Of a stretch of DNA of 64,000 bases, positions 9,271-21,048 are shown piece by piece. The number at the start of each line of letters is the position of its first letter. Within the stretch, counting starts at the first letter, position 1. The notes beneath the pieces were generated by a model. That model worked only from the letters and a program-made list of their open reading frames with translations, was not told the origin of the DNA and made no database searches. Location: assembly GCF_001984035.1 (NCBI RefSeq), contig NZ_CP019449.1:1364001-1428000 (forward strand), in the 5' to 3' direction. The position numbers and the translations under genes were made by a program. Source of the stretch: Sphingopyxis sp. QXT-31 (GTDB lineage: Bacteria; Pseudomonadota; Alphaproteobacteria; Sphingomonadales; Sphingomonadaceae).

Positions 9271-9308
9271 GCAAATACTGGCCAGCCCAAAAATCGAGAG
9301 GATTGGCC

Positions 9309-10361
9309 TTGTTTGACCACCCCATATTGCCGACAACGATCGTCGGAAGCTACCCCCAGCCCGACTGGCTGATCGACCGCGAACGGTTGAAGGCGAGCCT
9401 GCCGCCGCGGGTGCGCGCCGAGACCTTGTGGCGCATCCCCGAACCCTGGCTGGCCGACGCGCAGGAGGCCGCGACGCTGATGGCGATCCGCGACCAGGAA
9501 GAGCTGGGCATCGACATCGTCGGCGACGGCGAGATGCGCCGCGAAAGCTATTCGAACCGGCTGGCGACCGCGCTGTCGGGGATCGATACCGAGAAGCATG
9601 GCACCGCGATCGACCGCACCGGCAACGCCAATCCGGTGCCGCTCGTGTCGGGTCCGATCCGGCGGGTGGCGCCGATTGAGGCGCAGGATGCCGCCTTCCT
9701 GCGGCGCCATTCGACCAGGCCGGTGAAGCTCACGTTGCCCGGCCCCTTCACGATGACGCAGCAGGCCGAGAATGGCTATTATCCCGACGCGCGGTCGCTC
9801 GCGATGGATTATGCCGACGCGGTCAATGCCGAGGTGAAGGATCTGTTCGCGGCGGGGGTCGATGTCGTCCAGCTCGACGAACCCTATCTGCAGGCGCGCG
9901 CCGCCGAGGCCAATGCCTATGCGATCGAGTCGATCAACCGCGCGCTCGACGGCGTCGGCGGGACGACCGCGCTGCATATCTGCTTCGGCTATGCGATGGT
10001 GCACCATGGCGCGGGCGCGACCGGGCCGAAGCCCAAGGCCTATGACTTCCTGGCCGAGCTCGAGGCATCGGCGATCGACGTGATCTCGGTCGAGGCGGCG
10101 CAGCCTGGGCTCGACCCGTCGATCCTCGCCGAGCTGCCGACCAAGACGATCATGTACGGCGTGCTCGACCTGTCGATCCCCGAGGTGGAGACGCCCGAGG
10201 TGGTCGCGGGACGCATCCGCGAAGCGCTGCGTTATGTCGACGCCGAACGGCTGTGGATCGCGCCCGATTGCGGAATGAAGTACCACAGCCGCGAGCATAG
10301 CCAGGCCAAGCTGAAGGCGATGGTCGATGGCGCGGCGCTGATGCGGGGGGAGCTGAAGTAG
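9309..10361 (+). CDS. Single-domain MetE-like (cobalamin-independent) methyl/alkyltransferase
   Basis: This 350-residue protein matches only the C-terminal catalytic domain of MetE, about half the size of the housekeeping enzyme. All zinc/thiol-site elements are visible: LHICFGYA (His and Cys), the Glu in VISVEAAQP, and the Cys in APDCGMKYHS, plus VVQLDEPYL. Such proteins move a methyl or alkyl group to or from a thiol; the family also includes coenzyme M alkyltransferases. The start is a TTG at 9309 with GAGAGGA at 9296-9302; no ATG fits. It diverges from an acyl-CoA ligase across a class A palindrome, which points to a catabolic role instead of methionine synthesis. Confidence 0.85.
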   Translation: MFDHPILPTTIVGSYPQPDWLIDRERLKASLPPRVRAETLWRIPEPWLADAQEAATLMAIRDQEELGIDIVGDGEMRRESYSNRLATALSGIDTEKHGTAIDRTGNANPVPLVSGPIRRVAPIEAQDAAFLRRHSTRPVKLTLPGPFTMTQQAENGYYPDARSLAMDYADAVNAEVKDLFAAGVDVVQLDEPYLQARAAEANAYAIESINRALDGVGGTTALHICFGYAMVHHGAGATGPKPKAYDFLAELEASAIDVISVEAAQPGLDPSILAELPTKTIMYGVLDLSIPEVETPEVVAGRIREALRYVDAERLWIAPDCGMKYHSREHSQAKLKAMVDGAALMRGELK

Positions 10362-10372
10362 GCGACAATGAT

Positions 10373-10434
10373 GTTCCCGGCGAAAGCCGGGGTCCAGTCG
10401 ACGCTTGCATGGCCCCCGGCTATCGCCGGGGAAC
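10373..10434. repeat. Intergenic inverted-repeat element
   Basis: GTTCCCGGCGAAAGCCGGGG faces CCCCCGGCTATCGCCGGGGAAC. It consists of two GC-rich hairpins and an outer inverted repeat in the 81-bp gap between the convergent MetE-like and hydrolase-like genes. It may serve as a bidirectional transcription end. There is no coding sequence. Confidence 0.65.
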
Positions 10435-10442
10435 ACAAAGCA

Positions 10443-11135
10443 TCAGGCGTCGACAAAACTGGTCAGCAACGGCACCACAACCTCCGGCGCCTCGATGGTC
10501 GGGAGATGCCCGACCCCCGCGATGACTTCGAGCCTCGCGCCGGGGATCGCGTCCAAAATCTCGTCATGATGCGCGCGGCTGGTGATGCCGTCCTTTTCGC
10601 CCCAGATCAGCAGCGTCGGAACCGTAATCTCGCCGATTCGGGGGCGGCTGTCGATGCGCGCCATGATCGCGCGCTGCTGGGCGAGGAAGGTCTCGGCGCC
10701 GGTTTCGGCGGCCATCCGGCGCGCGATACCGAGCAGGCGTTCGTCGTTCCGCTTTTCCTCGGGGAAGAGGATCGGGATGCGCTCCTCGACGACCTGATCG
10801 AAATTGCCGCTCTCGACGAGGTCGATATAGCCCTGCCGCCGCGCGGTCTGCGCGGGGCCGTCGGCGGAGGCGAGCGTCGAGATCAGCGCGAGTTTCGCGA
10901 CGCGCTCGGGCGCGCGGCGCATGACCTCGAACGCGATGAAGCCGCCCATGGCGTGGGCGACTAGGGCGAATTTGGATGGAGCGTTGTCGAGGAGGCGCTG
11001 GGCGAAGCCTTCGATCGTGTCGTCGCTCTGGTTATCGGCGACGATGATGTCGCGGTCGGGCCAGGCGTCGAGCAGCGGCTGCCAGACGGCATCAGTGAGG
11101 AGCTGGCCGGTGATGAGTACGATGGGAAGCGACAT
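10443..11135 (-). CDS. Alpha/beta-hydrolase-fold protein lacking the nucleophile Ser
   Basis: This 230-residue protein has the alpha/beta-hydrolase layout: an opening strand PIVLITGQLLTDAVW, a nucleophile elbow VAHAMGGF, an acid strand LLIWGEKDG (Asp 182) and a histidine loop GVGHLPTIEAP (His 210). The residue at the nucleophile position (62, in HAMGG) is Ala (codon GCC) where active esterases have Ser. It is therefore probably not an esterase; it may be a non-hydrolytic lyase-type member or a binding protein. It is the last gene of the six-gene ligase-kinase-enolase operon, and its start overlaps the dehydrogenase stop by one base (TAATG). Confidence 0.85.
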   Translation of the reverse strand: MSLPIVLITGQLLTDAVWQPLLDAWPDRDIIVADNQSDDTIEGFAQRLLDNAPSKFALVAHAMGGFIAFEVMRRAPERVAKLALISTLASADGPAQTARRQGYIDLVESGNFDQVVEERIPILFPEEKRNDERLLGIARRMAAETGAETFLAQQRAIMARIDSRPRIGEITVPTLLIWGEKDGITSRAHHDEILDAIPGARLEVIAGVGHLPTIEAPEVVVPLLTSFVDA

Positions 11136-12055
11136 TAGATCACCTGATGCAGGAGCGGTTCGCCGGCGTCGAGGCGGCGGCAGTTTTCGTGCGCGACGGT
11201 CAGGCTGCGCACAAGCGTTTCGGGGGTGAGCCAGGCGATGTGTGGGGCGAGCACGGCGTTGGGCAGGCCCAGCAGCGGATTGCCGCGCGGCAGAGGTTCT
11301 TCTGCAAAGACATCGAGGCCGGCGCCGCGGAGATGGCCGATGGTCAGCGCTTCGACCAGCCTGGCCTCGTCGACCAGTTCGCCGCGCGCGGTGTTCACCA
11401 GCACCGCGCCCTTCTTCATCGCGAAGGGATCGACGCTGGCGCGCGTCTCGTCGGTGAGCGGGATGTGCAGCGAGACGATGTCGCTGGTTGCGAGCAGGTC
11501 GCCGAGCGGCAGATATTCATAGGGCACGTTGCGCTTGCTGCGCGCGGTGTAGACGATCTTCGCGCCGAGCGCCGCCAGCGCGGGGGCAAGCAGCAGCGCC
11601 GAATTGCCGAAGCCGACGAGGCCGATGGTGCGCCCGCCGATCTCGCCGACCTGATCGAGTTCGGAGGGGTCGGCGGTCCAGCCCTGCCCGGCGCGGGTGC
11701 GCGCGTCGAAAAAGCAGGTGCGGCGGAGCACCGCCATCATCAGCGACAGCGCCATTTCGGCGACCGCCTGGCTGTTGGTGCCGGGCATGTTGCACACCGC
11801 AACGCCGTGATCGCGGGCGGCGTCGAGCGCGATGGTGTTCACCCCGACGCCGAGCTTCTGGATCAGCTTCAAATTGGGTGCGGAGGCGATGAACTCGGGG
11901 GTGACCGGGGTCAGGACATGGAGCAATGCGGTGATGTCGGGCGCGACCGCGTCGAGCGGCGCGGCTTCGTCGACATGCGTCACGACGCCCGGTCCGAAGA
12001 TCGTATCGACCGCCTCGCGAAAGCCAGGGCTGGGGCGTGCGTGAAGGACGATCAT
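11135..12055 (-). CDS. D-isomer-specific 2-hydroxyacid dehydrogenase
   Basis: This 306-residue NAD(P)-dependent enzyme interconverts a 2-oxo acid and a D-2-hydroxy acid (the family includes phosphoglycerate dehydrogenase and hydroxypyruvate reductase). The catalytic set is present: Arg in NTARGELVDE, Glu in DVFAEEPL and His in APHIAWLT. The Rossmann motif is IGLVGFGNSALLLAPAL, without the usual third Gly. The N-terminal substrate-domain motif LKLIQKLGVGVNTI is also present. The start at 12055 overlaps the enolase stop (ATGA), implying coupled translation. Next to a kinase and an enolase paralog, it could make or consume a glycerate-like substrate (inference). Confidence 0.92.
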   Translation of the reverse strand: MIVLHARPSPGFREAVDTIFGPGVVTHVDEAAPLDAVAPDITALLHVLTPVTPEFIASAPNLKLIQKLGVGVNTIALDAARDHGVAVCNMPGTNSQAVAEMALSLMMAVLRRTCFFDARTRAGQGWTADPSELDQVGEIGGRTIGLVGFGNSALLLAPALAALGAKIVYTARSKRNVPYEYLPLGDLLATSDIVSLHIPLTDETRASVDPFAMKKGAVLVNTARGELVDEARLVEALTIGHLRGAGLDVFAEEPLPRGNPLLGLPNAVLAPHIAWLTPETLVRSLTVAHENCRRLDAGEPLLHQVI

Positions 12056-13350
12056 GCCGCGACCGCGCCGATGCTGCCAGCAAAGGCCGAGAAGCCGGCG
12101 AACACCGCGTCGGGGCCCATCGCTTCCTCGATGCGCAGCATCTCGTTCCATTTCGCCATGCGCTCGGAACGGGTGAAGCTGCCGACCTTGAGTTGGCCGG
12201 CGTTCCAGCCGGTCGCGAGATGCGCGATGGTGACGTCCTCGCTCTCACCCGAGCGCGCCGAGACGATCGCGCCCCAGCCGCGTGCGACGGCGGCGTCGAG
12301 CGCGGCCTTGGCCTCGGTGACAGTGCCGACCTGGTTGACCTTGATCAGCGCGGCGTTGCACACCCCCGCGTCGTCGGCACGGGCGACGCGATCGGCATTG
12401 GTGACGAGCACATCGTCGCCGATGATCTGGACGCGGTCGCCGATCGCGGCGGTGACCGCAGCCATCGCGGTCCAGTCGTCCTGCCCGGCGGGGTCCTCGA
12501 TCGACAGGATCGGATAGCGACCCGCCCATTCGATGATGCGCGCGGCCATCGCTTCGCTCGTCAGCCGGCCGTCGTCGAGCGCGAGGCTGTAGCCCGAGGC
12601 GTCGCCGAGTTCGTTGGCGGCGATATCGAGCGAGATGAAGACATCCTCGCCGGCGCGATGGCCGCTCGCCTCGATCGCCTTGGTCAGCGTGTCGAGGGCA
12701 TCCTCGTTCGACGCGAAATTGGGCCACCAGCCGCCCTCGTCGGCGACGCCCGACAACGGCCCTTTCGCTTCCATGAGCTTGCCGGCGGCGCGGTAGACAT
12801 CGTCGGTGATCTCGAGCGCGCGGCGGAAGCTTCCCGCGATGGGGCACATGATCATGAAGTCCTGCACGTCGGTGCGCCGCCCGGCGTGCGCGCCGCCGCC
12901 GAAAATCTGGATTTCGGGGAGCGGGATGCGGACTTTCTTGTCGCCTGCGAGATAGCGCCACAAGGGCAGCCGCGCATCGGCGGCGGCGGCGTGAAGCACC
13001 GCCATCGAAACCGCGACGACGGCGTTTGCGCCGAGGCGTGCCTTGTTGGGAGTGTTGTCGAGCGCGCAGAGTGCGGCGTCGACCGCAGCCTGATCCCGCG
13101 CGTCCATGCCGGTGATCGCCGACGCGATTTCGGACCCGATTCCCGCGACGGCGCGGTTGACGCCATAGCCGCCGAAGGCGGTGCCGCCATCGCGCAGGTC
13201 GATCGCCTCATGCGCGCCGCGCGAGGCGCCCGCGGGGGCGATGGCGCGGCCGGCGGCGCCCGAGGCCAGCGTGACTTCGGCCTCGACCGTGGGGCGGCCG
13301 CGCGAATCCCAGAGCTGGCGGCCGGTGACGGAGGCGATGGGCGATGGCAT
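12052..13350 (-). CDS. Divergent enolase-superfamily protein (enolase paralog)
   Basis: This 432-residue protein aligns end to end with bacterial enolase and keeps the three metal ligands (Asp 242 in SLDIAA, Glu 285 in SIEDP, Asp 312 in GDDVL), the base Lys 337 in IKVNQVG, Lys 388, His 155 and Glu 205 in ADEGG. Three active-site positions differ from true enolase: the QEF Glu is Asp 164, the SHRSGE His is Ala 365, and the catalytic loop reads PAGASRG instead of PSGASTG. It should remove water from a phosphorylated 2,3-dihydroxy acid other than plain 2-phosphoglycerate (inference). It is coupled to the dehydrogenase downstream and lies 1 bp after the kinase. Confidence 0.9.
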   Translation of the reverse strand: MPSPIASVTGRQLWDSRGRPTVEAEVTLASGAAGRAIAPAGASRGAHEAIDLRDGGTAFGGYGVNRAVAGIGSEIASAITGMDARDQAAVDAALCALDNTPNKARLGANAVVAVSMAVLHAAAADARLPLWRYLAGDKKVRIPLPEIQIFGGGAHAGRRTDVQDFMIMCPIAGSFRRALEITDDVYRAAGKLMEAKGPLSGVADEGGWWPNFASNEDALDTLTKAIEASGHRAGEDVFISLDIAANELGDASGYSLALDDGRLTSEAMAARIIEWAGRYPILSIEDPAGQDDWTAMAAVTAAIGDRVQIIGDDVLVTNADRVARADDAGVCNAALIKVNQVGTVTEAKAALDAAVARGWGAIVSARSGESEDVTIAHLATGWNAGQLKVGSFTRSERMAKWNEMLRIEEAMGPDAVFAGFSAFAGSIGAVAA

Positions 13351-13351
13351 T

Positions 13352-14323
13352 CTAGGTCCTTTTCCAGCTGGCGACGAGCGCTTCGATGGCGCGCGGCGCG
13401 CGGATCAGCGCGCGAGCCTGATCGCGGACGATATTCTTGTGTTCGGGGTCGGTGAGATAGGGCGCGGGCGACTTGCCCTCGACGCGCGCGAGGAGCAGCG
13501 CGGCGGTGAGCTTGCCCGCGCGGAGCAGCAGGGCTTCGGCATCCTCCCAATCGATGCCCGCGCGGTAAGCGGCGACCAGCGCCGCAGCGGCTTCATTCAT
13601 CCGCGCATCGCCCGACCAGACCACCTTGAGCAAAAGATGCGTGGTGCAGAAGGCCAGGTCGAACGCGGGATCGCCATAAACCGCGCATTCGGCGTCGAGG
13701 AAGACCGGGCCGTCGGCGCTGATGAGGATATTCTTGGGGCTGACGTCGCCGTGGACGAGCGCGATCTTGCGCCCCGACAAATCCTCGGCGAGCGCGGTGA
13801 GAGCGGGCGCGAGTTCGACGTCATGCTGCGCAACATAAAGCAGGAAGGGATCGACGCGCAGCGCGCGGAACATGTCGTCGTTGGGGAAGTCGGCGCGGTC
13901 GCCGTCGTTATAGGCGGTGGCGGCGTGGACCGCGGCGATGCCCTTCCCCACCTGCGCAGCAAAACCGGCGTCGACGCGGCCCGCCATCAACTCGTCCTTC
14001 CACACCGGGCAACCGGGGAGGAAGCGCATCGCAAAGGAATGGCCCGGCAGCTCGGCGAGCACCTCGGGCGCGATGTGGGGATCGACGCCGCGGGCGCGGC
14101 GCAGCCAGCGCACCTCGCTGGTCCCGCGCTCGACGGGGGCAAGCCATTCGGCGGCGACGCGCAGTTGCGGTAGCGGGCGCTTGACGACGATCGGGCCGGC
14201 CGGGCCGTCGACCTTCCACACGTCGCACGACACGCCGCCGGTCAGCGGCTGAAGGACAACCTCGTCCTCCCCCGCCAGCCCGGCGCCGCGCAGCGCGTCG
14301 ATGATGTCGGCGTCGGCCGTCAC
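13352..14323 (-). CDS. APH-family (aminoglycoside phosphotransferase-like) small-molecule kinase
   Basis: This 323-residue kinase has the protein-kinase-like APH fold: Lys 48 in IVVKRPL for ATP, the catalytic loop LVHGDVSPKNILI (Asp 193, Asn 198) and the metal-binding Asp 210 in FLDAECAVYGDPAFDLAF. In catabolic operons, APH-like proteins are known to phosphorylate hydroxyacyl-CoAs or hydroxy acids (LvaA of levulinate catabolism, the kinase domains of ACAD10/11). The GTG at 14323 is chosen as start, with GGGAGA upstream and only one base after the hydrolase stop; an ATG at 14350 would overlap that gene. It lies directly upstream of the enolase paralog, suggesting it makes the phospho-substrate for it (inference). 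Confidence 0.85.
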   Translation of the reverse strand: MTADADIIDALRGAGLAGEDEVVLQPLTGGVSCDVWKVDGPAGPIVVKRPLPQLRVAAEWLAPVERGTSEVRWLRRARGVDPHIAPEVLAELPGHSFAMRFLPGCPVWKDELMAGRVDAGFAAQVGKGIAAVHAATAYNDGDRADFPNDDMFRALRVDPFLLYVAQHDVELAPALTALAEDLSGRKIALVHGDVSPKNILISADGPVFLDAECAVYGDPAFDLAFCTTHLLLKVVWSGDARMNEAAAALVAAYRAGIDWEDAEALLLRAGKLTAALLLARVEGKSPAPYLTDPEHKNIVRDQARALIRAPRAIEALVASWKRT

Positions 14324-14324
14324 G

Positions 14325-15452
14325 TCACAGCTTCTCCCGGATCCATGCACCGACGAGGTCGGCGGCGTCCTGCCGTTCCTTGATCGAATCCTCGAAATAA
14401 TGCGCGCCGGGGATCAGTTCGATCTTTTTGTCGGTCGAGCCAAGGAAATCGAAGATCTTGCGCGCGTCGCTGGGGAACACGCCGGTGTCGGCAAGGCCCT
14501 GCACCACCAGCGCCGGGGTGTCGTGCTTCGCAAGGTGCGGCCGGCCCTGGCACGGCGAGGTTTCGAGGCTCCACATGTTGAGCCAGGTCTTGAGCGTGTT
14601 GGCGCGGCCGATGCTGGGGGTGCGGTTGGCGATCGCGGGGTCGCCGCGATAGCACCAGTTGGGCTTGCGCTCCGACGGGTCGATCGCGGGATCGACGCAG
14701 CGGATGTCGCCCCAGCAGCGGAACAGCGGGAAGATGCGGTCGGGAATGCCCGCCGCGTTGAGCCGTACGAGCTCGGCCTTGGCCCAGTCGGTGATGCGCT
14801 GGTTGCGGGCGCGCTGGCCGGCGCGATATCTGGCGATGAAGGCGTCCGAATAGGGCGGGCCGTTGTCGGGGTTGAAGGGGTCGAGTTCGGGGTCGGTGAG
14901 CGTCGGGTCATTCTCGTCGATCACCGAGGCGTCCATCCAGTCGGTGAGGACTTCCGGGCGGCCCTGATGCGCGTTGAAGCTGATGTAAAGGTCGCCCTTG
15001 ATGAGCTGTGCGAGCGCGTCCTGCCCCACCGAGGGCAGCCGGTCGGTGAGCGTCGGCGCGATGGCTTCGGCCTGATAGGCGCCCATCAGCGAACCGCCGC
15101 CCGAATTGCCGAGGATGACGATCGCTTCGACCCCGGCCTCTTCCTTCAGCCATTTCATGCCGACACCGATGTCGAGCACCGCATGTTCGAGCAGGAACTG
15201 GTCCTCGAAGCCGCGATAGCGCGTGTTCCAGCCGAGGAAGCCGAAGCCCTGCCGCGCAAAGTAAGGGGCGATATAATGTTCGGAGAAATCGACGTTGTAG
15301 TGGGTGGCGATGATCGCGACCTTCGGCCGCTTGCCCGCCTCGGTCCAATAGATGCCCTGGCACGGGTGGCCGCCCGCCTGGATGCGCGGCGCGGTCGGCG
15401 GTGCGCGGCCGATGAAGGTCGCGTCGAGGCCCTCGATGCCGTTGGGGTCCAT
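14325..15452 (-). CDS. Alpha/beta hydrolase
   Basis: This 375-residue hydrolase has a complete triad by eye: Ser 117 in ILGNSGGGSLMG, an Asp in VVQGLADTGVFPSDARK and a His in IPGAHYFEDS. It begins with a substrate-entry region rich in aromatic residues and contains a long inserted lid (about residues 130-290) with WCYRGDPAIANR. It probably cleaves an ester or thioester. The ATG at 15452 has AGGAGAG upstream. It is second in the six-gene operon, 25 bp after the acyl-CoA ligase, so a thioesterase or ester-opening step on the same carbon skeleton is plausible. Confidence 0.85.
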   Translation of the reverse strand: MDPNGIEGLDATFIGRAPPTAPRIQAGGHPCQGIYWTEAGKRPKVAIIATHYNVDFSEHYIAPYFARQGFGFLGWNTRYRGFEDQFLLEHAVLDIGVGMKWLKEEAGVEAIVILGNSGGGSLMGAYQAEAIAPTLTDRLPSVGQDALAQLIKGDLYISFNAHQGRPEVLTDWMDASVIDENDPTLTDPELDPFNPDNGPPYSDAFIARYRAGQRARNQRITDWAKAELVRLNAAGIPDRIFPLFRCWGDIRCVDPAIDPSERKPNWCYRGDPAIANRTPSIGRANTLKTWLNMWSLETSPCQGRPHLAKHDTPALVVQGLADTGVFPSDARKIFDFLGSTDKKIELIPGAHYFEDSIKERQDAADLVGAWIREKL

Positions 15453-15477
15453 TGATCTCTCCTGTTTTAGGGTTGTA

Positions 15478-17112
15478 CTAGCGGGTGACCTCGAAGGGCA
15501 ATTTATAGCCCTCCAGCCCTGCGCGGATCGCCTTTTTGTCGATCTTGCCGGTCGGGCCGAGCGGGATGTCGTCGACGAAGAGCACGTCGTCGGGCATCCA
15601 CCATTTGGCGATCTTGCCGTCGAGATAGGCGGTCAGGTCGCCGGCGTCCGCGCTCGCGCCGGGCTTCAATTGGCAGAGCAGGATCGGGCGCTCGTCCCAT
15701 TTGGGGTGCGACACGCCGACGACCGCGGCGTTGGCGACCGCTTCGTGCCCCATGGCGATATTCTCGATCTCGATCGAGCTGATCCATTCGCCGCCCGACT
15801 TGACGACATCCTTGGCGCGGTCGGTGATCTGCATATAGCCCTCGCCGTCGATCGTGCTGACGTCGCCGGTGTCGAAAAAGCCCTCGGCATCGAGCACATC
15901 GCCTCCCTCTCCGCCGAAATAAGCGCCGGCAATCGTCGGGCCCTTGATCATCAGCCGGCCGGGAGTCTTGCCGTCGTGCGGCAGCCGGTTGCCGGCGTCA
16001 TCGACGAGCTTCATCTCAAGCCCGCAGAGCAGGCGGCCCTGCTTGAGCTTATACGCCATCTGCTCGGACTTAGACTTTGCCGCGACCGACGCGTTAGGAA
16101 CCGACACGGTGCCGAGCGGCGAGGTTTCGGTCATGCCCCAGCCTTGGATGACGTCGACGCCATAATCGTCGCGGAAGGTGCGGATGATCGATTCGGGGCA
16201 GGCCGAACCGCCGATGGTGACGCGTTCGAGCGTGGTGAAGCGTTTGCCATTTTCCTGCATATATTGGAGCAGCATCTGCCACACGGTCGGGACGGCGGCG
16301 GAGTAAGTGACGCCCTCCTGCTCGATCAGGTTGTAAATCGATTCGCCGTCCATCCGCTGCCCCGGCAGCACCAGCTTCGCACCGACCGTGGGCGCCGAAT
16401 AGACGACGCCCCACGCATTGGCGTGGTACATCGGGACGACGAGCAGCACGGTATCGCGCGCCGAGAGGCCGAGCGCGTCGCGCTGGAGCGTCATCAGCGC
16501 GTGGATATAGTTGGAGCGGTGCGAATAGAGCACGCCCTTGGGATTGCCGGTGGTGCCGCTGGTGTAGCAGAGGCCGCAGGCGGCATTTTCGTCGAAACCA
16601 CCCCAGACATAGTCGGCGGGCTGGCCGGCGATCCAGTCGTCGAAGGCGATGGCAGGAAAGCTGGTTTTCGGCAGCGAGGCGGCGTCGCAGAAGAAGATCA
16701 CCTTCTCTATGCTCGGCACCTGCGGCAGCAATTCTTCGACGAGTTCGGCGGTCGCGGGGTCGGCTATCAGCAAGCGGTCGCTGGCGTGTTTCGCGATATA
16801 GGCGATCTGTTCGAGAAAGAGTCGCGGGTTGAGCGTGTGGAGCACGGCGCCCATGCCCGCGGCGCCATACCAGGCCGACAGGTGGCGCGCGCTGTTCCAG
16901 CCCATCGTCGCGACGCGGTCGCCCGGCTGGACGCCTTCGGCGGCGAGCGCGTTCGAGACGCGCTTGGCATCGGCGTGGATGGCGGCATAGGTCGAGCGGG
17001 TGACGCGGCCCTTGGCATCGCGCGACACGATTTCGCGGCCGCCGTGCCAGTTTGCGGCATGATCGAGGATGCGATCGACCGTCAGCGGCACATCCTGCAT
17101 CAATCCCATCAT
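15478..17112 (-). CDS. AMP-dependent acyl-CoA synthetase/ligase (2), fatty-acid type
   Basis: This 544-residue ANL enzyme resembles the long-chain fatty acid-CoA ligase branch. Motifs are [73 protein letters not shown] and the catalytic Lys in [12 protein letters not shown]. It would convert a free acid to acyl-CoA in the cytoplasm. The start at 17112 has GGAGGA upstream; a reading up to 17670 would run through the operator and the divergent MarR gene. It leads the six-gene operon that ends at 10443, and a class A palindrome lies 35 bp upstream. Confidence 0.93.
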
Positions 17113-17147
17113 GGTCCCGCGATCCTCCGTCCCAGCTTGCCAGAAAG

Positions 17148-17180
17148 ATAGTATACTAAGCATTTTGGCATTGCAATGCC
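17148..17180. promoter_or_regulatory. Class A palindrome plus a second palindrome in the MarR/ligase divergent region
   Basis: ATAGTATACTAA (17148-17159) matches the class A consensus and contains a -10-like TATACT in both directions. Immediately next to it GGCATTGCAATGCC (17167-17180) is a separate perfect 14-bp palindrome. The pair sits 35 bp from the ligase start and about 75-107 bp from the MarR start, so the MarR product is the first candidate to bind here. Confidence 0.6.
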
Positions 17181-17254
17181 GCTTCGCCTTGCGCCGCCCC
17201 TGCCCTTCTTCTAGCGTCGGATCGGGCAAAACAGGGAATTTCCAGCTGCATATC

Positions 17255-17713
17255 ATGCGCACCAACCAGTTGATCATCGCGCTTTTCCAACGCTTCTGCT
17301 GGCTCGACGAGGGGCTGCAGGCGCGGCTGCACGACCGCGGCTGGCCCGACGTCAACCGCCCGCAATCGATGGTGATGACCAATATCGTCAGCGGCGTGGT
17401 GCGCCCGTCGGACATCGCGCGCAACCTCGGCGTGTCGCGGCAAGCCATCCACAGCACGATCAACCAGATGGTCGCGCTGGGCATCGTCCAGCTGGAGACC
17501 GACCCCAGCGACCGGCGGCACATGATCGTGTCGCTGACCAAAACGGGCGCGCGGATGCGCAAGGATGCGCAGCGCGCGATGGACGCGCTGACCGCGCAGA
17601 TCGCCGCGGTGCTGGGGCAGGACAAGTTCGACGCCTTGCTCGCCGCGCTCGAAGCCGACTGGGGCGACAATATCGAGCGCGCGGCGCCGCCGGCGAAGAA
17701 GAAGTCGGCCTAG
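17255..17713 (+). CDS. MarR-type winged-helix transcriptional regulator
   Basis: This 152-residue DNA-binding protein has a MarR-like core: the recognition helix in SDIARNLGVSRQAIHSTINQ, the wing ETDPSDRRHMIVSLTKTG, and flanking dimerisation helices. It ends with a basic tail (PAKKKSA). MarR proteins usually repress catabolic genes and let go on binding an aromatic or acyl-CoA ligand. The ATG at 17255 is the best start by content, but its ribosome site is weak. It diverges from the six-gene operon across a class A palindrome and overlaps the convergent FMN reductase gene by 4 bp. Confidence 0.85.
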   Translation: MRTNQLIIALFQRFCWLDEGLQARLHDRGWPDVNRPQSMVMTNIVSGVVRPSDIARNLGVSRQAIHSTINQMVALGIVQLETDPSDRRHMIVSLTKTGARMRKDAQRAMDALTAQIAAVLGQDKFDALLAALEADWGDNIERAAPPAKKKSA

Positions 17714-18285
17714 GCCGTCAGCGCCTTTGCCACCGCGACCAGCCGCGCGGCGGTCATGTCGACGAGCGAGGCGGGGAGCGCGTCCTTGAGCTGGCCGTCC
17801 TCGTCGAACGCCGCATGCGCGCTGGGTACGAGCACCTGGTCGGGGATCACGAGCATCTGCACGGTGCCGAGGATCTGGCGGAGGTGCGCGAGGCCGCGGA
17901 TGCCGCCGAAGGGGCTGATCGACGCGCCCATGATCGCCGCCGCCTTGCCGCGAAAGGCGCTGAGCGCGACGAGCCCCTCGTCGCCGGTGGGGCGCGAGGC
18001 CCAGTCGATGGCGTTCTTGAGCAGCGCCGGGATCGAGCCATTATATTCGGGCGACACCAAAAGCAGCCCGTCCTGCGCGACGAGCGTCGCCTTGAGCTTC
18101 AGCGCGTCGGCGGGAAAGGCGTTCGCTTCGAGCGCGGCGGTGTAGATCGGCAGGTCGAGCGTGGCGAGGTCGACGAGCGTCACCTCGGCGCCATGCGCTT
18201 CCAGTCGCGCCGCCGCGAGCGCGCCCAGCGCCCGGTTGAACGACCCGTCGCGCGTGCTGCCGACGATTACCGCAATCTTCGTCAT
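17710..18285 (-). CDS. NADPH-dependent FMN reductase
   Basis: This 191-residue flavodoxin-fold protein has VIVGSTRDGSFNRALG for the FMN phosphate and LLVSPEYNGSIPALLKNAID for the isoalloxazine ring, both standard for the NADPH:FMN reductase/azoreductase family. It could supply reduced flavin to an oxygenase or reduce a quinone-like intermediate. A class A palindrome lies 22 bp upstream of the ATG at 18285, so it appears to belong to the same regulon. Its stop overlaps the stop of the convergent MarR gene. Confidence 0.9.
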   Translation of the reverse strand: MTKIAVIVGSTRDGSFNRALGALAAARLEAHGAEVTLVDLATLDLPIYTAALEANAFPADALKLKATLVAQDGLLLVSPEYNGSIPALLKNAIDWASRPTGDEGLVALSAFRGKAAAIMGASISPFGGIRGLAHLRQILGTVQMLVIPDQVLVPSAHAAFDEDGQLKDALPASLVDMTAARLVAVAKALTA

Positions 18286-18304
18286 GATCCCTCCCGAAGC
18301 GAAT

Positions 18305-18320
18305 GGTTAGAATGCTAACC
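18305..18320. promoter_or_regulatory. Class A palindrome (putative operator)
   Basis: GGTTAGAATGCTAACC has perfect 6-bp arms around AATG (core TTAGAATGCTAA, 18307-18318). It lies between the FMN reductase start (18285) and the end of the second MarR gene (18336), so it should control the reductase. Confidence 0.6.
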
Positions 18321-18335
18321 GATACGCCGGAACGA

Positions 18336-18842
18336 TCAAGCCTTGACGTCGGAGAGTACCGAAAGATTGCGCGTCTCATCGGCGAGATTACCGATCACGC
18401 GGCGCATCAGCCCCTGCAGCAACTCGACCTCCTCGTCGCTCATCCCGCGCGTCGCGATCTCGTGAATCTCGGCATTCATCGGCGCCAGGACGAGCTCGAG
18501 CTTCTTCGCGTGCGGGGTGAGGAAGATGAAGGTCTTGCGGCGGTCGTCGCTGGTCTTCTTGCGCGTGATGAAGCCCGCCTTTTCGAGGCCCTTGAGCGCC
18601 ACCACCGTGGTGGGTTCGCGCATGCCCACGCGTTCGCTGAGCTCGCGCTGGGTGATGCCGTCCTCGCGCCACAACTGGCGCAGAAAGCGCCACGGGCCCG
18701 CCGAGACATCGTGCGTCAGCGTGCGGCGTTCGAGCAGCCGCGAAAAGGAACGGAAGACCACGCGCGCGAGATAGCCGATACTGTTTTCGGGATCGGTGTA
18801 ATATTCGGCGGGATGCCGAAAGCTCTCTTTGGTCTTGGCCAA
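18336..18842 (-). CDS. MarR-family transcriptional regulator
   Basis: This protein is about 168 residues from a TTG at 18842, which has GGGGAG (18848-18853) upstream; a longer TTG reading to 18962 has no clear ribosome site. The winged helix is obvious: DGITQRELSERVGMREPTTV as recognition region, then RKKTSDDRRKTFIFLTPHAK as wing. The N-terminal helix FRSFSRLLERRTLTHDVS and the C-terminal helices form the dimer. It is flanked by two class A palindromes (18305-18320 and 18980-18995). It shares the region with FMN reductase and the LeuD paralog and is a second candidate controller of the class A regulon. Confidence 0.88.
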   Translation of the reverse strand: MAKTKESFRHPAEYYTDPENSIGYLARVVFRSFSRLLERRTLTHDVSAGPWRFLRQLWREDGITQRELSERVGMREPTTVVALKGLEKAGFITRKKTSDDRRKTFIFLTPHAKKLELVLAPMNAEIHEIATRGMSDEEVELLQGLMRRVIGNLADETRNLSVLSDVKA

Positions 18843-19013: not shown

Positions 19014-19598
19014 GTGCGGAAGTTCGAACGGGTGCCCGGGGTCGCGGTATCGCTGCCGCTGGCCAATGTCGATACCGACATGATCATCCCCGCGCGCTTC
19101 ATGAAGGCGCTGACCCGCGAAGGGCTCGGTCGGCATCTGTTCGAGGAACTGCGCCGCGCGCCCGATGGCAGCGAGCGCGCCGATTTCGTGCTGAACCGGC
19201 CAGCGGGACGCGCGGCGCAGATATTGATCGCCGACCGCAATTTCGGCTGCGGCTCGTCGCGCGAACATGCGGTGTGGGCGCTCGCCGATTTCGGCATCCG
19301 CTGCGTGATCGCGCCGAGCTTCGGCGACATCTTCGCGGGCAATGCGCGCAAGAACGGACTGCTGCTGATCCGCTTGCCCGACGAGCTTTGCACAAGCCTG
19401 GCGCGCGAGATCGAGCTGGCGCAGCATGCGCCGGTCGAGATCGACCTGGAAGCGCAGGAAATCCGGCTGGCATCGGGCGAGGTAGTGGCGTTCGCGATCG
19501 ACGCGGGCGACCGGCGGGTGCTGATGGAGGGGCTCGACGATATCGGGCGGACGCTGCGGCATGCGGACGCGATCGCGCGGTTCGAGAGGGCGGCCTAG
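19014..19598 (+). CDS. leuD: LeuD-like hydro-lyase small subunit (3-isopropylmalate dehydratase family)
   Basis: This 194-residue swivel-domain subunit shows the LeuD signature: [16 protein letters not shown] near the N-terminus, [15 protein letters not shown] and [16 protein letters not shown]. With LeuC it forms a [4Fe-4S] hydro-lyase that moves a hydroxyl between adjacent carbons of a dicarboxylic acid. The GTG start at 19014 has a strong AAGGAGGA. The gene is convergent with, and overlaps the 3' end of, a LeuC-like gene; normal leucine operons have leuC and leuD side by side on one strand. A class A palindrome in front suggests a catabolic paralog, though leucine synthesis cannot be excluded. 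Confidence 0.88.
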
Positions 19599-21025
19599 CC
19601 CAGCATCTCGGGCGCAGCGATTGCGCCCGCAACGGCGCTGGCGGCGGCTAGCGCGGGGCTCATCAGATGCGTACGGCCGCCGCGGCCCTGGCGGTTCTCG
19701 AAATTGCGGTTCGAGGTCGAGGCGCAGCGCTCGCCCGGGGCGAGCCGGTCGGGGTTCATGCCGACGCAGAGCGAGCAGCCGGGTTCGCGCCAGTCGAAGC
19801 CTGCCGCGCGGAAGATCGTATCGAGCCCCTCGGCCTCGGCCTGCTGCTTGACGAGCCCCGAGCCCGGCACGACCATCGCGCGGACATGCGGCGCGACTTT
19901 GCGCCCGCGCGCGACGGTCGCCGCAATGCGCAGATCTTCGATCCGGCTGTTGGTGCAGCTGCCGATGAAGACGCGGTCGAGACGTACGCCGGCGATGGGC
20001 TCGCCTGGGCTGAGGTCCATATAGGCGAGCGCGCGATAGGCGCTTTCGCGCGCATCGGGATCGTCCAGCGCCGCAGGGTCGGGGACAAGCTCGCCGATAC
20101 CGACGACCTGCGACGGGTTGGTGCCCCAGCTGACCATCGGACCGACATCGGTCGCATCGATGTGAAGGTCGCGGTCGAAGGCGGCGTCGGCGTCGCTGGC
20201 GAGCCTCTGCCAGCGGGCGACCGCCCTGCCCCATGCATCCCCCCGCGGCGCCGACGGGCGTCCTTCCAGATAGGCAAAAGTCGTTTCGTCGGGCGCGACA
20301 AGCCCGGCGCGCGCGCCCATCTCGATGCTGAGGTTGCAGAGCGTCATCCGCGCCTCCATCGACAGCGCACGCACCGCGGATCCGGCATATTCGATGACAT
20401 GGCCGGTCGCGCCATCGACGCCGACGCGCCGCAGCAGGTGTAGCGCGAGATCCTTGGCCGAGACGTGCGGCGCCAGCGCGCTGTCGACGATGACCCGCAT
20501 GTTGCGCGACTTGCGCTGGCGGATCGTCTGCGTCGCGAGCACATGCTCGACCTCGCTGGTGCCGATCCCGAAAGCGAGCGCGCCGAAGGCGCCGTGGGTA
20601 GAGGTATGGCTGTCGCCGCAGACGATCGTCATCCCCGGCAGCGAGCGCCCCTGCTCGGGGCCGACGACATGGACGATGCCGTTTCGGGCATCGCCCATCG
20701 CGAAGCGCGCGATGCCGAAGCGGTCGGCATTGGCTTCGAGCGCCGCAAGCTGCGCGCGCGCCTCGGGATCGGCGACCGCCGCGACGCCCGCCGCCTGCCC
20801 CTGGGTCGGGACATTATGGTCGGAGAGCGCGAGCGCGCGTTCGGGACGGCGTACCGTTCGCCCCGCCGCCGCAATCCCCGCGAAGGCCTGCGGCGAGGTG
20901 ACCTCGTGCAGCAGGTGCAGGTCGATGTAGAGGATCGATTCGCCATCGTCGTCGGCGACGACATGTGCGTCCCAGATCCTGTCGTAGAGCGTGCGCGGTC
21001 GTCCGCTCGCGTCCTGATCCCGCAA
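19595..21025 (-). CDS. leuC: LeuC-like hydro-lyase large subunit (3-isopropylmalate dehydratase family)
   Basis: This large subunit of about 476 residues is the aconitase-superfamily partner for LeuD. The three cluster cysteines are present in [14 protein letters not shown] and [24 protein letters not shown] and [13 protein letters not shown] bind substrate. Start choice is uncertain: a TTG at 21025 has GAAGG upstream, while a TTG at 21046 would abut the operator at 21049-21062; both add a short tail before the usual [12 protein letters not shown] beginning. It runs convergently into the LeuD paralog with a 4-bp overlap and carries its own class A palindrome, so both subunits look co-regulated despite opposite orientation. 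Confidence 0.88.
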
Positions 21026-21048
21026 CTCTTTGCCGCCTTCGTACAATA

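Follow-up and report, generated by a model that had tools for sequence, protein, structure and literature searches.

Why should a bacterium that carries an ordinary enolase keep a second one, encoded between the genes for a kinase and a 2-hydroxyacid dehydrogenase? The question is raised by a six-gene operon of Sphingopyxis sp. QXT-31, which lies in the window that we analysed (64,000 nucleotides of contig NZ_CP019449.1, positions 1,364,001 to 1,428,000 of the forward strand). We found that the conserved core of this operon is the pair formed by the kinase (KIN) and the enolase paralog (ENO), and that these two genes are adjacent in many other, only distantly related bacteria. The paralog belongs to a clade of its own, in which two residues on the leaving-hydroxyl side of the active site are altered. 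Judging from sequence comparisons, we propose with a probability of about 0.58 that KIN and ENO work together as a unit of two enzymes that phosphorylates and then dehydrates a C3-substituted (2R)-2,3-dihydroxy acid.

The kinase-enolase pair as the core of the operon

The Sphingopyxis genome that holds the operon is a single contig of 4.29 Mb. A preliminary description, made from the letters of the window, had proposed a six-gene operon, and both its extent and its gene order were confirmed: the genes run on the minus strand from 17112 to 10443, and neighbours are separated by at most 25 bases or overlap. In order of transcription, the six genes are as follows.

15478..17112, minus strand: acyl-CoA ligase (AMP-binding), first gene of the operon; ATG start, 544 amino acids, PF00501 at 261.6 bits
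14325..15452, minus strand: alpha/beta hydrolase 1; GNSGG elbow retained, no curated family
13352..14350, minus strand: KIN, APH-fold kinase, core gene; GTG start, PF01636 at 71.8 bits
12052..13350, minus strand: ENO, enolase paralog, core gene; Enolase_C at 284.4 bits and Enolase_N at 158.6 bits
11135..12055, minus strand: HADH, D-isomer-type 2-hydroxyacid dehydrogenase; PF02826 (2-Hacid_dh_C) at 153.3 bits and PF00389 at 71.3 bits
10443..11135, minus strand: alpha/beta hydrolase 2, nucleophile Ser replaced by Ala; PF00561 (Abhydrolase_1) at 58 bits

Pfam cut-offs were passed by five of the six proteins, the exception being hydrolase 1. KIN has a second in-frame GTG at 14323, and that start would leave no overlap with hydrolase 1. 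HADH was assigned the ATG at 12055, which gives a 4-base overlap with the ENO stop, and the listed open reading frame extending to 12151 begins too early; hydrolase 2 overlaps HADH by 1 base. No sigma-70-like promoter was found in 10300-18400, where the mean expected from shuffled sequence is 0.9.

A profile scan of named genomes confirmed at least 574 loci with relatives of the kinase, and the best 80, a set biased toward relatives of the window, were kept. In 67 of these best 80 loci, ENO shares the strand of KIN and is no more than 300 bp away; in 3 it stands further off, so that the kinase-enolase linkage held in the gene-neighbourhood survey that the preliminary description had suggested. 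HADH is at most 300 bp away from KIN or from ENO in 42 of the best 80, namely in 23 of the 24 loci that contain hydrolase 1 (referred to as window-type loci) and in 19 of the 56 others. Because a homolog of hydrolase 1 was present in only 24 of the best 80 loci, 22 of them titled sphingomonads, Caulobacteraceae or Phenylobacterium, we rejected the six genes as a conserved unit. The expectation of joint conservation thus stands for KIN and ENO, and less often for HADH, far beyond the genus, and fails for the operon as a whole. Outside the window type, the commonest arrangement is KIN-ENO with no adjacent HADH (35 of 68 loci, not de-duplicated). The orders KE, KEH, EK, HEK, HK and KH were all seen (K, KIN; E, ENO; H, HADH), and a distance of a few kilobases separates KIN from ENO in loci L055, L056, L106, L129 and L133 and on two Rhizobium plasmids.

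The two genes also coincide across genomes. KIN was detected at an E value of 1e-10 or better in 26 of 396 Sphingomonadales genomes, and the ENO motif S-A-R-S-G-E-[ST]-E-D, searched as a DNA pattern, in 23 of the 396, all of them among those 26; none of the 370 Sphingomonadales genomes without KIN contained the motif. The KIN genomes lacking it comprise one with an approximately 60% identical kinase and two with weak hits near 1e-11. Since 14 of the 26 KIN genomes come from one genus, they are not independent; counted by genus, KIN occurs in 11 of 84 Sphingomonadales genera and the motif in 8 of 84. A sample of the phylum yielded KIN at 1e-20 or better in 9 of 398 genomes. With shared species history still contributing to every value, tree distances of KIN and ENO were correlated at r = 0.749 (90 loci; 0 of 2000 permutations as high), and at r = 0.556 among the 55 non-window-type loci (0 of 2000). 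The corresponding values were r = 0.581 for KIN and HADH (23 loci; 0 of 2000) and r = 0.455 for ENO and HADH (20 loci; 5 of 2000).

The active site of ENO and the proposed reaction

ENO passes the glycolytic enolase model TIGR01060 (471.8 bits, cut-off 300). The genome carries two enolases (432 and 286 bits), the ordinary one being encoded elsewhere and 46% identical to ENO, and the term paralog used in the preliminary description was therefore right. A mandelate-racemase-type enzyme was ruled out (MR_MLE_C at 36.7 bits vs Enolase_C at 284.4 bits). Of eleven whole genomes examined by way of chosen KIN loci, nine have one ordinary enolase and one paralog, and the other two, which are without ENO at the KIN locus, have a single enolase each.

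Of 92 paralogs whose active-site residues were read, 88 are full-length, some genes being reached twice. Ser43, His155, Glu205, Asp242, Glu285, Asp312, Lys337, Arg366, Ser367 and Lys388 are kept in 88 of 88. Among them, Lys337 serves as the base, Asp242, Glu285 and Asp312 bind metal, and Arg366 and Ser367 bind the phosphate. Just as invariably (88/88), Asp164 stands instead of the catalytic Glu and Ala365 instead of the catalytic His. In a second set, sorted into ordinary enolases and paralogs by residue 365 and with seven genes included twice among the paralogs, all 41 ordinary enolases have Glu and His, and all 48 paralogs have Asp and Ala. In the tree of this set, the paralogs form a single separate clade (support 0.999). 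Further near-fixed changes are found around Glu205 (Gly to Ala at 203, 88/88; Ala to Trp at 209, 86/88) and beside Lys388 (Thr to Val at 389, 87/88). We also observed a deep subclade in which Leu-Ser replaces aromatic-Trp at 208-209 (L038, 7397-8704; L119, 8683-9966; L209); the gene order in L038 and L119 is HADH-ENO-KIN.

As described in a study of Synechococcus enolase, a water near C3 is hydrogen-bonded by Glu168 and His367, and Lys339 removes a proton from the side opposite these two residues (PMC8996150). ENO residues were mapped by aligning the protein with chain 4rop; adding 4 to the chain index yields the numbers of that study for all of Glu168, Glu209, Asp246, Glu287, Asp314, Lys339, His367, Arg368 and Ser369. 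Two residues that act on the leaving hydroxyl are thus changed and the remaining catalytic residues are conserved, which is most simply explained by a bulkier substituent at C3; another leaving group is possible. The substituted substrate suggested in the preliminary description is favoured by this invariant change on the C3 side.

KIN belongs to the APH phosphotransferases (PF01636 at 71.8 bits, cut-off 23.2), and K57, HGD.SPKN and DAE are invariant across 19 aligned homologs. It matches PF01636 and neither PF05161 (MOFRL) nor PF02595 (Gly_kinase). Its nearest solved chains by sequence are 2pyw and the methylthioribose kinase 2olc; KIN being a methylthioribose kinase itself was ruled out by TIGR01767 (45.7 bits vs a cut-off of 275). 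HADH passes the cut-offs of both PF02826 and PF00389 and is thus a D-isomer-specific 2-hydroxyacid dehydrogenase. Its best solved relative is 2cuk, a glycerate dehydrogenase/glyoxylate reductase (178.7 bits), and phosphoglycerate dehydrogenase is also among the best. Two HADH types, 34% identical to each other, occur among the loci. A ketopantoate-reductase-type gene stands upstream of KIN in L101, L134 (Comamonadaceae) and L139 (Pfam check on L101), so that an unrelated type of 2-oxoacid reductase would fill the place of HADH there. Both families yield (R)-2-hydroxy acids as a rule, which fits the unaltered C2 side of ENO.

From the genes, their linkage, the residue changes and the clade we infer a chemistry that includes the direction of HADH and the substituted substrate. 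In the window, HADH would reduce a 2-oxo-3-hydroxy acid to the (2R)-2,3-dihydroxy acid, and KIN would use ATP to place a phosphate on the 2-hydroxyl (O2) of this C3-substituted compound. ENO would hold the phosphate and carboxylate by metal ions, Arg, Ser and Lys, pass the C2 proton to Lys337 and release the C3 hydroxyl, so that a 3-substituted phosphoenolpyruvate is formed. The shortening of Glu to Asp and the replacement of His by Ala, both on the solvent side, would make room for the C3 substituent. The CoA ligase and the hydrolases may carry out other steps of a local catabolic pathway.

Neighbouring genes and competing explanations

The neighbourhoods of KIN fall into four types. Loci of the window type contain the ligase, the hydrolases, HADH, MarR genes and FMN reductase, VOC, CMD and methionine-synthase-like genes, and many of them also have a LeuCD-like pair. 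Sugar-acid-type loci, for example on Paracoccus and Roseibium plasmids, have an FAH hydrolase, short-chain dehydrogenases/reductases (SDRs), LacI and sugar ABC/TRAP transporters; the FAH copy of L033 scores 341 bits against the L-2,4-diketo-3-deoxyrhamnonate hydrolase 8gsr. HADH, an NAD(P)H-dependent oxidoreductase, an alcohol dehydrogenase and VOC characterize the Rhizobium/Rhodococcus type, in which two Rhodococcus plasmids also carry FAH genes. KIN-ENO pairs without a recurring neighbour constitute the fourth type and are frequent.

Beyond the ligase gene in the window lie two further genes.

17255..17713, plus strand: MarR-type regulator, divergent from the operon; start inferred from the homolog in L071
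17710..18285, minus strand: FMN-reductase-family gene, co-conserved neighbour; PF03358 at 146.4 bits

The longer MarR open reading frame (17069-17713) scores 39.6 bits with PF12802, and a PF03358 gene is also present in L129 (Ramlibacter). LeuD-like and LeuC-like genes lie on opposite strands (19014-21046) and are both found again next to the operon in loci of sphingomonads, the LeuC-like gene being one of three aconitase-family genes in the genome. At 9303-10361, a cobalamin-independent methionine-synthase-like gene (PF01717) is convergent with the operon and recurs with it. A DUF3237 gene is found at 235-804; L116 has two members of its cluster upstream of KIN, one of these immediately before it. 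Elsewhere, an ENO-KIN pair (L168, 8745-11026) is situated near plasmid partition genes of Methylobacterium nodulans pMNOD02. Genes resembling those for a Rieske oxygenase, a Gfo/Idh-type oxidoreductase and a dihydroxyphthalate decarboxylase were recognized by eye near the window-type cluster of L036 (642-4194), hinting at an aromatic or cyclic substrate.

As to the remaining operon genes, the ligase passes NF004674 (854 bits, cut-off 766) and stays below the cut-off of NF005426, the 3-(methylthio)propionyl-CoA ligase model (739.9 bits vs 822). The elbow of hydrolase 1 reads GNSGG in 31 of the 33 members of its cluster and GWSGG in 2. Its homologs number 4478 among 8000 scored, and those of the 120 listed that are named bear general names only (such as alpha/beta hydrolase, carboxylesterase or hypothetical protein). 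Hydrolase 2 had been called dead in the preliminary description, and this was borne out: in 30 of 31 homologs Ala takes the place of the nucleophile-elbow Ser, the motif being unable to read the 31st, and the window protein has VAHAMGG. It may be a conserved pseudo-hydrolase or else a non-hydrolytic alpha/beta enzyme.

Several observations weigh against a phosphorylating dehydration of a substituted acid. ENO is absent from the locus in 10 of the best 80 KIN loci; 2 of these 10 are cut by a contig end within 142 bases of the kinase, and a third, that of Streptomyces spongiae, belongs to a genome that encodes a paralog at another site. Of the 56 named loci outside the window type, 37 have no HADH within 300 bp. 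In a search of 7 kb around KIN, relatives of the FAH query were found in 4 of these 56 loci, of LacI in 5 and of the SDR queries in 2; relatives of VOC, CMD, FMN reductase, alcohol dehydrogenase and the binding protein were each found in a single locus, and relatives of phosphoenolpyruvate carboxylase in 0. Neighbours so mixed give no general substrate class, and a single class was not reached (FAH near KIN in 4/56, other queries 0 to 5). Genes for sugar-acid dehydratases are present as well, of the UxuA type in L136, the galactarate/altronate type in L127 and the MR/MLE type in L059, which weakens the idea that KIN-ENO replaces an aldonate dehydratase as a rule. Two Rhizobium plasmids carry a phosphoenolpyruvate carboxylase gene beside HADH-KIN (L167, 5190-7946; L176, 8185-10938), which fits plain phosphoenolpyruvate as the product, and neither MOFRL nor Gly_kinase glycerate kinases were found in the whole genome of the window.

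A wider version of our proposal, which we regard as possible if rather doubtful, makes KIN-ENO a general phosphorylating dehydratase for 2,3-dihydroxy acids (aldonates etc.) and a second route to 2-oxo-3-deoxy acids. At sugar-acid-type loci, the pair would create the 3-deoxy position needed by the acylpyruvate-type FAH hydrolase. If true, KIN-ENO works beside the direct sugar-acid dehydratases, with the phosphate on O2 and hydroxide leaving C3, and the step need have no net ATP cost, because a high-energy enol phosphate can return its phosphate to ADP. The enolase lineage itself would then have gained a new reaction, concealed by the name phosphopyruvate hydratase in probably hundreds of genomes. 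The small number of sugar-type genes in the 56 non-window-type loci lowers the odds of such generality.

The strongest rival is a plain route from hydroxypyruvate through glycerate to phosphoenolpyruvate, in which HADH is a hydroxypyruvate reductase, KIN an unrecognised glycerate 2-kinase and ENO an ordinary isozyme. The relatives of HADH, glycerate dehydrogenase/glyoxylate reductase and phosphoglycerate dehydrogenase, speak for it, as do the ENO score above the TIGR01060 cut-off, the missing MOFRL and Gly_kinase enzymes and the carboxylase genes on the two Rhizobium plasmids. It leaves unexplained, however, why a second, leaving-group-altered enolase is retained: all nine paralog-bearing genomes tested carry an ordinary enolase too, and the two substitutions, Glu to Asp and His to Ala, which have no exception in the sets counted, fall on the hydroxyl-activating residues. 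We consider the plain route unlikely. Less likely still is a reaction of ENO other than hydroxide loss, be it with another leaving group or an epimerisation, for which KIN would prepare the phosphate; that the altered part is the leaving-group side speaks for it, but the ten other catalytic residues, base Lys and three metal ligands included, are kept in 88 of 88 paralogs. We regard as very improbable a hydroxyacyl-CoA kinase system built from the ligase and KIN, comparable to levulinate catabolism or to ACAD10/ACAD11, with ENO a mere neighbour: a CoA ligase and an APH-fold kinase do share the operon, and the ACAD10/ACAD11 kinase domains are reported to phosphorylate 4-hydroxyacyl-CoAs (PMC11342911, PMC12440821), but KIN is tightly linked to ENO in 67 of the best 80 loci, the window-type hydrolase 1 is missing in 56 of the best 80, and no acyl-CoA dehydrogenase was found among the six operon genes.

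Comparison with known systems

A description of the KIN-ENO pair was not found in open-licence papers, a set outside which most subscription papers lie, and within it nothing contradicted the earlier statement that no pathway with this combination had been described. The part families are known; the pair and the altered enolase clade appear to be undescribed within the literature searched. Enolase is commonly regarded as a one-function lineage. As an altered, kinase-tied clade passes the NCBI enolase model, part of the genes annotated as phosphopyruvate hydratase probably encode a different enzyme, and misnamed genes of this kind can mislead reconstructions of glycolysis. KIN and ENO make a directly testable enzyme pair, requiring two proteins, a simple enol phosphate assay and few candidate acids.

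Like the glycolytic enolase, ENO is a full-length two-domain protein (471.8 bits) with ten catalytic residues retained; it differs in the Asp and Ala on the leaving-hydroxyl side, in forming a separate clade and in being linked to a kinase. KIN counts the methylthioribose kinase structure among its nearest solved relatives, as noted above. The serine-cycle segment consists of hydroxypyruvate reductase, glycerate 2-kinase and enolase. Our operon encodes the same succession of reaction types (2-hydroxyacid dehydrogenase, then kinase, then enolase), and two Rhizobium clusters add phosphoenolpyruvate carboxylase; here, however, the kinase has the APH fold rather than being of the MOFRL or Gly_kinase type, and the active site of the enolase is altered.

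Some KIN-ENO loci, a minority of those surveyed, resemble non-phosphorylating pathways of the L-2,4-diketo-3-deoxyrhamnonate type in having an FAH hydrolase, SDRs, LacI and sugar transporters. They differ from non-phosphorylating sugar-acid pathways in that no aldonate dehydratase is listed beside KIN-ENO on the Paracoccus and Roseibium plasmids, for which the gene tables are incomplete; in these stretches KIN-ENO could replace the aldonate dehydratase step. With ACAD10 and ACAD11, where it is the phosphate itself that is eliminated, the likeness is that a kinase readies a hydroxy compound for elimination. The proposed KIN-ENO unit, in contrast, would lose hydroxide and keep the phosphate, and the partner of its kinase is an enolase.

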